55,162 nucleotides of DNA from Fibrobacter sp. UWH6 (GTDB lineage: Bacteria > Fibrobacterota > Fibrobacteria > Fibrobacterales > Fibrobacteraceae), in contig NZ_FRAX01000020.1 of the NCBI RefSeq assembly GCF_900142465.1, positions 1 through 55,162 of the forward strand, in the 5' to 3' direction. Positions within the stretch are counted from its first letter, which is position 1. Each line of letters begins with the position of its first letter. The notes beneath the pieces are model-generated. The model saw nothing but the letters and a program-made list of their open reading frames with translations. It was not told where the DNA came from and made no database searches. Both the position numbers and the translations under genes were made by a program. Below are positions 32,951 through 37,205 of the stretch, in pieces.

Positions 32951-32972
32951 TTTGCAAACAGTTGTTTGCAAA
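32951..32972. promoter_or_regulatory. Candidate activator site upstream of the grpE promoter
   Basis: TTTGCAAACA-GT-TGTTTGCAAA is a perfect 10-bp inverted repeat centred about 120 bases before the predicted start of transcription. That is the usual distance for a binding site of a sigma-54 enhancer-binding protein. Confidence 0.5.
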
Positions 32973-33057
32973 ATTCTTCATTTTTTTATAAAAAATCCCA
33001 TTCCTAGCTTGATTTCGTCATTGTTTCAAATAGAAACACTTGGTGTTGCGTTGGGGT

Positions 33058-33073
33058 TGGCACGGTTTTTGCA
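33058..33073 (+). promoter_or_regulatory. Sigma-54 type promoter of grpE
   Basis: TGGCACGGTTTTTGCA matches the -24/-12 consensus TGGCACG-N4-TTGCA exactly, with the correct 10 bases between the GG and GC pairs. It lies 35 bases before the grpE start codon. An inverted repeat GTTTC-N5-GAAAC lies 20 bases upstream. Confidence 0.8.
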
Positions 33074-33108
33074 AAATAAAGGGCGAAATTTAAACACAAG
33101 GAATTAAT

Positions 33109-33768
33109 ATGGCCGACGAAAATTTGCAGGAACCCTCCGCTGAAGAACGCGCAAAGTTTGAAGAAGATGTACTTAAGGCAGCCCAGGACGCCATGAAAAT
33201 GGAAGCCGAGGCCAATGCCGAAGCCAGTTCCGAAGAAGCATCCGCAACCCAGGATTCCCCTGCCGACGCCCAGGCTTCTGAAACGGCGGAACCTGCCGCA
33301 GAACAGGCTCCCTCCGCCGAGGATTCCCTGAAGGCTGAACTTGCTGCCGCCAACGACCGCAACCTGCGTCTGATGGCCGAATTTGACAACTTCCGCCGCC
33401 GCAGCGCACGCGAACAGCTTGAAATCATTGAAACCGCCAACGGAAAGCTCCTGGAAAAGCTTTCTGAAGTGCTGGATAACTTCGAACGCGCCTTCGCCGC
33501 CGAAAACAAGGCCAAGGACCTGGATACCTTCGAAAAGGGCATGCAGATGATCCACGACCAGTTTGCCAAGGTTCTCACCGACGCAGGTCTCGAACAGCTG
33601 GACCCCACCGGCCAGGAATTCGACCCCAACTGCCACGAAGCCCTGATGCAGCAGCCTTCCGAAGAAATCCCCGAAAATCACGTGGTGACGGTCTTTATGA
33701 AGGGTTACAAACTGAAAAATAAGATCCTGAAGCCCGCCAAGGTGATTGTTTCATCTGGCAAGGCATAA
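33109..33768 (+). CDS. grpE: GrpE nucleotide exchange factor
   Basis: The 219-aa protein has a long acidic, Ala/Glu-rich N-terminal region (1-75), a coiled coil, and the GrpE core with MAEFDNFRRRSAREQLE (about 88-104), LLEKLSEVLDNFERAF and the C-terminal beta part with GQEFDPNCHEALMQQPSEE and NHVVTVFMKGYKLKNKIL. It releases ADP from DnaK. AAGGA lies 8-12 bases before the ATG. A sigma-54-type promoter lies just upstream, and dnaK follows with its own promoter in the 117-base gap. Confidence 0.97.
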   Translation: MADENLQEPSAEERAKFEEDVLKAAQDAMKMEAEANAEASSEEASATQDSPADAQASETAEPAAEQAPSAEDSLKAELAAANDRNLRLMAEFDNFRRRSAREQLEIIETANGKLLEKLSEVLDNFERAFAAENKAKDLDTFEKGMQMIHDQFAKVLTDAGLEQLDPTGQEFDPNCHEALMQQPSEEIPENHVVTVFMKGYKLKNKILKPAKVIVSSGKA

Positions 33769-33803
33769 TAAGGAATTGTTTCAAATTAAAACGTTTTGCT
33801 GTT

Positions 33804-33820
33804 TGGCACGGAATTTGCAT
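33804..33820 (+). promoter_or_regulatory. Sigma-54 type promoter of dnaK
   Basis: TGGCACGGAATTTGCAT matches the -24/-12 consensus with exact spacing and lies 65 bases before the dnaK start codon. A GTTTC-containing dyad (33778-33792) lies 11 bases upstream, the same motif as before grpE but about one helical turn closer. Confidence 0.8.
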
Positions 33821-33885: not shown

Positions 33886-35787
33886 ATGAGCAAGATTATT
33901 GGTATCGACCTTGGTACAACCAACAGCTGCGTTTCCGTTATGGAAGGTGGCAAGCCCGTAGTGATCGCAAACGCAGAAGGTTTCCGCACTACCCCGTCTA
34001 TCGTCGCATTCGGCAAGACTGGCGAACGTCTCGTTGGCCACGTTGCTAAGCGTCAGGCAATCACCAACCCCGAAAAGACCATTTACTCCATCAAGCGCTT
34101 CATGGGCCGCTCTGCTGGCGAATGCTCCGCTGTGGAAAAGAACATGCCCTACAAGCTCGTCGGTTCCGGTTCCGATCCCATTCGCGTGCAGATCGACGAC
34201 AAGCAGTTCGCTCCTCCCGAAATTTCTGCTGCAGTTCTTCAGACCATGAAGAAGATTGCTGAAGACTACCTGGGCGAAACCGTTTCCCAGGCTGTGATCA
34301 CCGTTCCGGCATACTTCAACGACGCTCAGCGCCAGGCTACCAAGGACGCTGGTAAGATTGCTGGCCTCGAAGTTCTCCGTATCGTGAACGAACCGACCGC
34401 TGCTGCTCTCGCCTACGGCCTCGACTCCAAGAAGAGCGAAAAGGTTGCCGTGTATGACCTCGGTGGTGGTACCTTCGATATCTCCATTTTGGAAATCGAC
34501 GACGGTATGTTCTCTGTGAAGTCCACCAATGGTGACACCATGCTGGGCGGTGACAACTTCGACGAAGTCATTATCGACTGGATCAACGACGAATTCAAGA
34601 AGGAAAATCCCTCTATCGACCTGAAGAAGGACAAGATGGCTCTCCAGCGTTTGAAGGACGCTGCTGAAAAGGCCAAGATCGACCTTTCTGCAACCACTTC
34701 TACCAACATCAATCTCCCCTTCATCACTGCTGACGCTACTGGCCCGAAGCACTTGGACCTTACCCTCAGCCGTGCAAAGTTTGATCAGCTGACCGCTCAC
34801 CTTGTTGAACGTTCCATGGAACCCTGCCGCAAGGCTATCGCCGACTCTGGCCTGTCTCTGTCTGAAATCGACGAAGTGATCCTGGTTGGTGGTTCTACCC
34901 GTATTCCGGCCGTCCAGGAAGCTGTGAAGAAGTACTTCGGCAAGGAACCCAACAAGACTGTGAACCCCGACGAAGTTGTGGCCATCGGTGCTGCAGTTCA
35001 GGGCGCAGTTCTTAGCGGCGACTCCGCTGTGAAGGACGTTTTGCTCCTCGACGTGACCCCGCTTTCTCTGGGTATCGAAACTCTCGGTGGCGTCATGACC
35101 AAGCTCATCGACCGTAACACCACCATTCCTACCAAGAAGAGCCAGGTGTTCTCTACCGCAGAAGACAACCAGCCGGCAGTGACCATCCATGTTCTCCAGG
35201 GTGAACGTGAATTTGCTCGCGACAACCGTACCCTCGGTAAGTTCGACCTCACCGACCTCCCGAAGAAGCCCCGCGGCGTTCCTCAGATCGAAGTGACCTT
35301 CGACATCGACGCCAACGGTATCGTACACGTTTCCGCTAAGGACAAGGAAACCGGTAAGGAACAGTCCATCAAGATTACTTCCTCCAGTGGCCTCTCCGAA
35401 GACGAAATCAACAAGATGGTGAAGGACGCCGAAGCCAACGCTGCCAAGGATAAGGAACAGCGCGAACTGGTAGACGTCAAGAACCAGGCTGAACAGATGG
35501 CTTACCAGGTCGAAGCACAGCTCAAGGAAGTTGGCGACAAGCTGCCGGCCGATACCAAGGCTCAGATTGAAGCTGCTATCCAGGAAATCAAGGACAAGAA
35601 GGACAACGGCACCAAGGAAGAAATCAAGGCCGCTATGGACAAGCTCCAGAACATGATGAGCTCCATGGCTCAGGCTGCTGGCGCTGCCGGTGCACAGCCG
35701 GGTCCTCAGCCGGGTGCTTCTGAACAGCCGAAGTCCGACAAGAAGAACGACGGTCCGGAAGTTGTCGACGCTGAAGTTGTTGACTAA
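33886..35787 (+). CDS. dnaK: Chaperone DnaK (Hsp70)
   Basis: The 633-aa protein is a full-length DnaK: the ATPase domain with [18 protein letters not shown] (4-21), [14 protein letters not shown] and [14 protein letters not shown], the linker [18 protein letters not shown], the substrate domain and a Gly/Gln-rich tail ending EVVDAEVVD. It folds proteins together with DnaJ and GrpE encoded beside it. GGAG precedes the ATG by 9 bases. Codon use is strongly biased, as expected for a highly expressed gene. Upstream is a sigma-54-type promoter, unusual for this gene; a hairpin terminator follows. Confidence 0.99.
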
Positions 35788-35790
35788 TTA

Positions 35791-36058
35791 ACAGGTACGA
35801 GGTCGCTCGCAAGCTCGCTTTCAGGGCGCTACGCTTTGAGGTATGAGGCTTGAGAGCGGATCTCTCAAAAGGTGTTTTCCTGTCTTTTGAACGGGAACAC
35901 CTTTTTGCATATAAAAAGGCTGCAGGTTCGAGGAAAGAGGTTCACTCTGATCTGTGATTTGCGCGTAGCGCCTTGATTCAACTCAAAGGGCGAAGCCCGG
36001 CCTCAAAGCACCGTAAGGTGCGACCTCAAACCTCAAAGCTCCGAAGGAGCGAGCTCAA
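35791..36058. repeat. Array of CCTCAAA-linked short hairpins between dnaK and dnaJ
   Basis: Units of CCTCAAA plus a 5-bp hairpin occur: GCACC-GTAA-GGTGC (36008-36021), GCTCC-GAA-GGAGC (36038-36050), GGGC-GAA-GCCC (35988-35998) and GCGC-GTA-GCGC (35961-35971). The opposite orientation (CTTTGAGG, GGCGCTACGC) lies at 35791-35850 on the other side of the dnaK terminator. The last hairpin contains the only ribosome binding site of dnaJ. Confidence 0.7.
35867..35906 (+). terminator. Terminator after dnaK
   Basis: AAAAGGTGTTTTCC and GGGAACACCTTTTT form a long stem with a 12-base loop and a T-rich 3' arm, about 80 bases after the dnaK stop codon. dnaJ would then need a promoter in the following 150 bases. 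Confidence 0.8.
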
Positions 36059-36059
36059 T

Positions 36060-37205
36060 ATGGCAGATAAAAGAGATTATTACGAAGTTCTAGGCGTCGG
36101 TAAGGACGCAAGTGCTGACGAAATCAAGCACGCTTATAAGAAGCTTGCCATTAAGTACCATCCGGATAAGAACCCGGGTGACAAGGAAGCTGAAGAAAAG
36201 TTCAAGGAAGCTGCAGAAGCTTACGACGTGCTCTCTAATCCGGAAAAGCGCAAGAACTACGACCAGTTTGGCTTTAACGCTCCTGGTGGCGGTTTCGGCG
36301 GTGGCGGATTTGGCGGCGGTGGCTTCGGAAGTTTCGAAGACATCTTCAGCCAGTTTGGCGATATCTTTGGCGGTGGCTTTGGTTTTGGCGGCGGTGGCCG
36401 TGGTCGTAGCCGTAAGGCAGGCCCTCCCCGCGGAAACGATTTGCAGATCAAGGTGGCCCTGAGCTACAAGGAAATCTTCGAAGGTTGCACCAAGAAGGTT
36501 CGCCTGAAGCGTTATACTCCCTGTACCGAATGTAACGGCAAGGGTGGCGAAAATGTTACTGAATGTAGCACTTGCCACGGCACCGGCCGAGTACGTCGTG
36601 CAACGGGCGGTTTCTTCCAGATGATTTCTGAAAGTGCCTGCCCCACTTGTAATGGTATGGGCGAAGTCATTGCAAAGCCTTGTTCCAACTGCCGTGGCGA
36701 AGGCCGTGTGCAGGAAACCGAAGAAATCTCCATCAAGATTCCGGCAGGTGTTTCTGAAGGCCAGTACCTGAATCTCCGTGGCGAAGGTAACTGCGGTCCT
36801 CGTGGCGGTGCTTGCGGCGACTTGCTTGCCGTAGTGACGGAAAAGCCCGATGACTTCTACACCCGCGAAGGCGATGACCTGCACTGTGAAGTGAAGGTTC
36901 CCGTACATCGCCTGGTTCTTGGCGGTACCCAGCGCATTCCTACTCTGGAAGGCGACGAAGTGCAGATCAAGATTGCAGCCGGCACTCAGGCTGGCAGCAT
37001 CCTACGTCTCCGTGAACAGGGACTGTACCCGCTGAACAAGCGTGGAGACCGCGGAAGCCTCTACGTCGAAATCGGCGTTGAAATTCCCAAGGATCTTTCC
37101 AAAGAAGAAAAGGAACTCTACCAGAAGCTGGCCGAACTCCGCAAGGACAAGGAAACCGCCCAGGAAGAGAGCTTCCTTGAGAAGATGAAGAATCTGTTCA
37201 AGTAA
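36060..37205 (+). CDS. dnaJ: Co-chaperone DnaJ (Hsp40)
   Basis: The 381-aa protein has a J domain with [20 protein letters not shown] and the HPD motif in [10 protein letters not shown], a Gly/Phe-rich region (about 78-125), four zinc-binding CxxCxGxG repeats ([32 protein letters not shown]) and the C-terminal substrate domain. It delivers clients to DnaK. The start at 36060 is set by the J domain; an in-frame upstream extension lies in repeat DNA. AAGGAG, 10 bases before the ATG, lies inside a small hairpin, so folding could limit translation. Confidence 0.98.

Follow-up and report, generated by a model that had tools for sequence, protein, structure and literature searches.

Accounts of the core heat-shock response in bacteria usually centre on alternative sigma-70 factors or repressors. 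Sigma-54 depends on ATP and stays silent unless a dedicated activator is present. In Fibrobacter, which plays a central part in the breakdown of cellulose in the guts of herbivores, the core heat-shock response appears to be run wholly by sigma-54. Sigma-54 control of chaperones has already been predicted in Bacteroidota and Planctomycetota, where one study (PMC12316311, 2025) predicts sites before groES/groEL, grpE, dnaK, dnaJ and ibpA, and before htpG in Bacteroidia. As in that cluster, several core chaperone genes of a single Fibrobacter genome are preceded by sigma-54 sites. The text of the study does not mention Fibrobacter, and the study is not known to name an activator, an upstream site or an HrcA/CIRCE exchange. 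Escherichia coli ibpB is likewise a heat-shock gene with a sigma-54 promoter (Kuczynska-Wisnik 2001, as cited in PMC4316790), but it is one small chaperone beside a dominant sigma-32 system and not a whole core regulon. At Chlamydia hrcA-grpE a sigma-54 promoter serves the grpE-dnaK operon as in Fibrobacter, whereas HrcA is present there and controls a sigma-66 promoter, and heat down-regulates rpoN (PMC8762339). The HrcA/CIRCE system shares the targets groES, grpE and dnaK with the sigma-54 arrangement of Fibrobacter, but it acts by negative control through an inverted repeat near the gene start and has been lost in Fibrobacter. We found no account of sigma-54 chaperone control in Fibrobacter in the open-access literature, most subscription papers being outside the scope of the search. 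New here are the phylum, the wholesale replacement of HrcA/CIRCE, a phased palindrome upstream of the promoters and a candidate activator.

The window, the whole stretch of 55,162 nucleotides analyzed here, is contig C20 of a 3.92-Mb Fibrobacter genome and contains the following features around its chaperone genes.

33023..33037, forward strand: palindrome GTTTC-AAATA-GAAAC upstream of grpE, a proposed activator site (UAS, no binding data) centred 27 bp ahead of the T in the -24 box
33058..33073, forward strand: predicted sigma-54 promoter of grpE, TGGCACGGTTTTTGCA (TGGCACG-GTTT-TTGCA), 0 mismatches, predicted transcription start at about 33084
33109..33768, forward strand: grpE, 219 aa
33778..33792, forward strand: palindrome GTTTC-AAATT-AAAAC upstream of dnaK, centred 18 bp ahead of the -24 box, with 1 mismatch
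33804..33819, forward strand: predicted sigma-54 promoter of dnaK, TGGCACGGAATTTGCA (TGGCACG-GAAT-TTGCA), 0 mismatches, predicted transcription start at about 33830
33886..35787, forward strand: dnaK, 633 aa
36060..37205, forward strand: dnaJ, with an ATG start at 36060

We interpret the two sites as working sigma-54 promoters within a heat-shock regulon that has replaced HrcA/CIRCE in Fibrobacter, with an NtrC-type protein encoded on contig C3 as the best activator candidate. We hold this reading with high confidence, on comparative evidence only, as there are no transcript 5' ends, binding data or heat-induction data. The original prediction, that both sites fit the sigma-54 -24/-12 consensus with exact spacing, is borne out: 33058-33073 and 33804-33819 match TGGCACG-N4-TTGCW perfectly and keep the GG-N10-GC spacing. 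Of the distances to the start codons that it gave, the 35 bases to the grpE ATG at 33109 are correct, while the 65 bases to the dnaK ATG at 33886 have to be corrected to 66. A pattern scan of the window found no other match without mismatch. At 2 mismatches the sigma-54 pattern is no commoner in the window than in shuffles, and the weight is therefore carried by the perfect matches only. From base composition, 0.010 perfect sites are expected in the window and 0.73 in the genome, against 2 and 13 observed, which agrees with the earlier judgement that two such matches by chance are unlikely. The same window scan recognized no sigma-54 site before dnaJ, which is probably served by the dnaK promoter or by another promoter. 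A conserved GGGCGAAA-like stretch is found at the predicted transcription start of the sigma-54 sites.

At least 12 of the 13 perfect sites in the genome stand in front of a gene, and they can be sorted into a heat-shock group, a nitrogen group and a small remainder. Five belong to chaperone genes, namely grpE, dnaK, htpG, clpB and an Hsp20. Others precede glutamine synthetase III (glnN), gltB, the urea-transporter binding protein (urtA) and acetolactate synthase (als), and further ones a sigma-70-family factor, a porin-like protein and an ATP-grasp protein; the thirteenth (L007) has no convincing target and may be due to chance. The groES gene of this genome has a sigma-54 site with 1 mismatch. 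Note that this genome-wide annotation covers only the perfect sites and some listed sites with 1 mismatch.

Absence of rpoN, or of the motif in relatives, would have told against the original prediction. However, rpoN was found in 21/21 genomes tested (PF04552; E=7.7e-46 in the genome of the window), and across the genus Fibrobacter a sigma-54 site with 0-2 mismatches precedes grpE in 29/29 loci and groES in 34/34, while the site before dnaK is perfect in 20/20. All lie within about 105 bases of the start codon. The loci of one genus are not independent, and accepting sites with up to 2 mismatches inflates the conservation at consensus positions. Of the loci read, only those of the window's genome and of a near relative have grpE next to dnaK. 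An automatic match in families f3 and f5, TGGTACAyTTsTTGCG, some 200-280 bp ahead of a wrongly placed grpE start, was rejected as a promoter as it lies inside the upstream coding gene, which by its position is hrcA.

The chaperone promoters share a second element. The palindrome GTTTC-N5-GAAAC occurs with at most 1 mismatch in 45 of 64 non-redundant chaperone promoters (filtered at 60% identity over 80 bp), compared with a mean of 0.21 in mononucleotide shuffles, and GTTTCAGAACGAAAC or a similar copy precedes dnaK in most relatives. The distances from its centre to the -24 box cluster near 27, 38, 48, 60, 69, 81, 90, 99, 111 and 124 bp, with a phase concentration of R=0.60 at 10.5 bp. When only the 33 unique distances are used, the period that fits best is 10.6 bp (scan-corrected p=0.0013). 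Such spacing in steps of about 10.5 bp suits an activator that binds on one face of the DNA. In the genome of the window the palindrome lies upstream of the promoter at grpE, dnaK, groES and hsp20 and downstream of it at htpG. At 1 mismatch it is absent from the six non-chaperone sigma-54 promoters (glnN, gltB, urtA, als, porin-like and ATP-grasp); the perfect sites of clpB and of the sigma-70-family gene have no copy within 1 mismatch either, and several groES and grpE promoters are without a clear one.

Palindrome and sigma-54 site are paired in 53 of 61 genus genomes, well over the reversed control. The palindrome alone is not enriched genome-wide (168 compared with 221 for the reversed control) and is therefore meaningful only together with a sigma-54 site. 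In a stringent pattern scan of 84,980 GTDB species, the chaperone-linked matches were Fibrobacter dnaK and a single dnaK of Victivallis (Lentisphaerota), and no record from Bacteroidota was obtained. The remaining matches, isolated unrelated ones and a series from Bradyrhizobium with no chaperone genes, were set aside as about the chance level plus one unrelated conserved locus. In the uncultured Victivallis (L359:2732-2779), outside Fibrobacterota, GTTTC-N5-GAAAC and a sigma-54 site stand before dnaK. A further repeated element, TTTGCAAAC/GTTTGCAAA, is located farther upstream of grpE (32952-32974 in the window; L036, L037, L038, L040) in near relatives only and is possibly another binding site.

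The presence of these promoters mirrors the loss of the common repressor system. HrcA was detected in none of 37 genus Fibrobacter genomes and in neither of 2 sister-family genomes, with control genomes positive; the remaining families of the class mostly have it, as do several families of the phylum. In all 14 HrcA-bearing genomes in which groES was read, CIRCE precedes this gene with 0-2 mismatches, and none of these 14 has a credible sigma-54 site there. Conversely, genomes without HrcA (genus Fibrobacter, f2, f7 and f10) have no CIRCE at groES (at least 6 mismatches) and show a sigma-54 site before groES, grpE or dnaK in nearly all readable cases; two second groES copies in f10 have neither CIRCE nor a sigma-54 site. 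RpoH did not exceed the TIGR02392 cut-off in any of 61 genomes, while 2 of 14 controls did. The chaperone controls that the original prediction had named as usual, HrcA/CIRCE and sigma-32, are thus not found in the genus, which lacks HrcA, CIRCE at groES and an RpoH over the cut-off. Family f4 looks like an intermediate state between HrcA/CIRCE and sigma-54 control, as HrcA is encoded, groES (read in G018) has CIRCE, and grpE has a sigma-54 site and palindromes. The sister lineages that keep HrcA/CIRCE make a switch between two unrelated control systems visible, and with a named candidate activator, a likely binding site (no binding data) and the intermediate f4 this switch is directly testable. 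The HrcA-bearing relative G051 carries groES at least twice; a perfect CIRCE goes with one copy (L267) and a perfect sigma-54 site with another (L298, G051:C222:59300-60300).

The candidate activator is an NtrC-type protein of 508 aa encoded at C3:265278-266801 (the C3 protein). All of the genus genomes (37/37) have a single match to it. In 14 genomes of the class and phylum outside the genus, the best match is no more than a few kb away from dnaK or comes immediately after dnaJ, the gene order where read being (hrcA)-grpE-dnaK-dnaJ-activator. Within the genus the gene has been relocated and now stands behind the genes of a membrane histidine kinase and a stand-alone receiver. Like NtrC-family proteins, the C3 protein combines a receiver-like domain, an AAA+ sigma-54 domain and a Fis-type HTH in one chain. 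The AAA+ sigma-54 interaction domain (PF00158, 235 bits; PF25601 lid) and the Fis-type HTH (PF02954, 47.9 bits) are normal, and the recognition helix hardly varies within the phylum. By sequence, its closest solved relative is NtrC1 of Aquifex (1ny5/4l4u), from which the genus sequences differ in the loop and the receiver. In nearly all of the genus, GAYTGS or GSYTGS takes the place of GAFTGA in the loop that contacts sigma-54; the Thr is kept, and GAFTGA is found in some distant relatives. The receiver, which scores just under the PF00072 cut-off, has Glu51 in 30 aligned genus sequences at the position of the phospho-acceptor Asp51 of 1ny5, and Ser is found at this position in f3, f5 and one f2 protein. 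The lack of the phospho-Asp makes it improbable that phosphorylation of its own receiver switches the protein.

We consider the C3 protein likely to be the activator of the chaperone promoters. That it binds the palindrome is an inference from gene neighbourhood and distribution, without binding data. Of the steps proposed here, the identity of the activator is the least secure, and the heat signal that reaches it is less secure still. Control of the chaperone genes by sigma-54 and an enhancer-binding protein, as originally suggested, hence finds support at the comparative level in the conserved sites, the phased palindrome and the candidate activator encoded beside dnaJ in relatives. A copy of GTTTCTTAAAGAAAC near the C3 activator gene was discarded as a site because it lies inside the coding sequence of that gene. 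Another enhancer-binding protein, of the GAF type (L122; C8:47342-47842 in this genome, reverse strand), reads GALVGV in place of the GAFTGA loop and may no longer activate sigma-54.

Sigma-54 polymerase is held at its promoter as a closed complex, as is established for the sigma-54 class. Such a complex would wait at the -24/-12 promoters of a regulon comprising grpE, dnaK, groES, htpG, clpB and hsp20, with secA added in some relatives. An activator hexamer bound at the palindrome is inferred to touch the polymerase from the same DNA face, and would then open the promoter with ATP. In E. coli, sigma-32 is restrained by DnaK/DnaJ. The descent of the C3 activator from a gene beside dnaJ suggests a comparable restraint by chaperones, in which DnaK/DnaJ might hold the activator directly and release it once they are occupied by misfolded protein; this is speculation, to which we give less than even chances. 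Alternatively, the neighbouring histidine kinase/receiver pair could pass the heat signal to the activator. Taken as a whole, an enhancer-dependent heat-shock circuit, in which a dnaJ-linked NtrC-type activator with a dead receiver, held by DnaK/DnaJ, took over after the loss of HrcA in Fibrobacterales, with a similar arrangement in at least one other phylum lineage, remains a tentative proposal.

The promoters could be real and still depend on another protein, as the genome encodes 7 strong Sigma54_activat (enhancer-binding) proteins, the C3 protein included. A short protein on C27 without a sensor domain or a protein with a degenerate receiver on C5 might be the activator, and the C3 protein might control something else. 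This would fit the occurrence of the dnaK-linked C3 family in HrcA-keeping lineages that have no sigma-54 site at groES or grpE, and the failure to find it at E 1e-90 in family f7 and in G057, both of which have sigma-54 sites at chaperone genes. Nevertheless, the C3 family alone was seen next to dnaK-dnaJ in relatives, its single match in every genus genome and its conserved recognition helix speak for it, and two of the remaining proteins sit near nitrogen genes, so that we regard another activator as unlikely without setting it aside. The palindrome could also be the operator of a repressor standing in for HrcA, in which case a looping or soluble activator bound at some other place would drive the sigma-54 polymerase. 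Short perfect palindromes with centres down to 18-28 bp from the -24 box are indeed unusual for enhancers, and the htpG copy lies downstream of its promoter. Copies from 18 to 124 bp upstream in steps of about 10.5 bp, however, suit an activator facing the polymerase, a simple blocking repressor would cover the promoter, and no repressor gene is known to accompany the palindrome; we find this reading distinctly improbable.

It is also conceivable that sigma-54 is only auxiliary and that a sigma-70-type promoter accounts for most chaperone transcription and for its induction by heat. Cells require DnaK and GrpE at every temperature. The tandem sigma-66/sigma-54 promoters at Chlamydia hrcA-grpE provide a precedent (PMC8762339), but no second strongly conserved promoter-like block was recognized by eye in the aligned upstream regions, and HrcA, CIRCE and RpoH are missing, which makes a merely auxiliary role improbable. 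The frequency of the 2-mismatch pattern in the window, which does not exceed that in shuffles, is all that favours a chance origin or an unrelated conserved element, to which we assign a negligible likelihood. The excess of perfect sites over the 0.7 expected, the conservation at dnaK and the anticorrelation of the sites with HrcA/CIRCE make it very unlikely. We therefore retain sigma-54 promoters of a heat-shock regulon, with the C3 protein as the candidate activator, as the preferred reading.

Outside the chaperone set, the nitrogen-set promoters (glutamine synthetase III, gltB and urea transporter; L005, L006, L010, L123) form a separate group, and on contig C2 an enhancer-binding protein gene adjoins a second glutamine-synthetase-like gene. 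The sigma-70-family factor, a protein of 270 aa, has its perfect sigma-54 promoter 36 bp before the start (L001; C1:141236-141251 in this genome, reverse strand), making a sigma cascade possible. Its identification as RpoH or RpoS was rejected, as it scores below both curated cut-offs.

Several leaders and spacers near the chaperone genes have structure of their own. Fibrobacter groES 5' leaders (L268, in this genome on C1 near 321100-321193; L251-L317) form two successive short hairpins, for instance GGTCCA-TTTGGACC followed by GGGC-GCCC, whose sequence varies while the pairing is kept (mean z -1.9 compared with shuffles). A role in stabilizing the mRNA or in thermosensing is possible. The hairpins of the dnaK and grpE leaders are on average hardly better than shuffles, with mean z of -0.6 and -0.3, respectively. 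The gap between dnaK and dnaJ (35795-36055 in the window) is full of short palindromic repeats, GCTCGCAAGCTCGC and CTCAAAGC...GCGACCTC, and a stretch similar to these repeats is found in the htpG leader (L002). Finally, in several Fibrobacter genomes (L137, L143, L144, L363) secA carries a GTTTCA motif and a sigma-54 site shortly before its start, and the translocase motor may therefore join the chaperone regulon.
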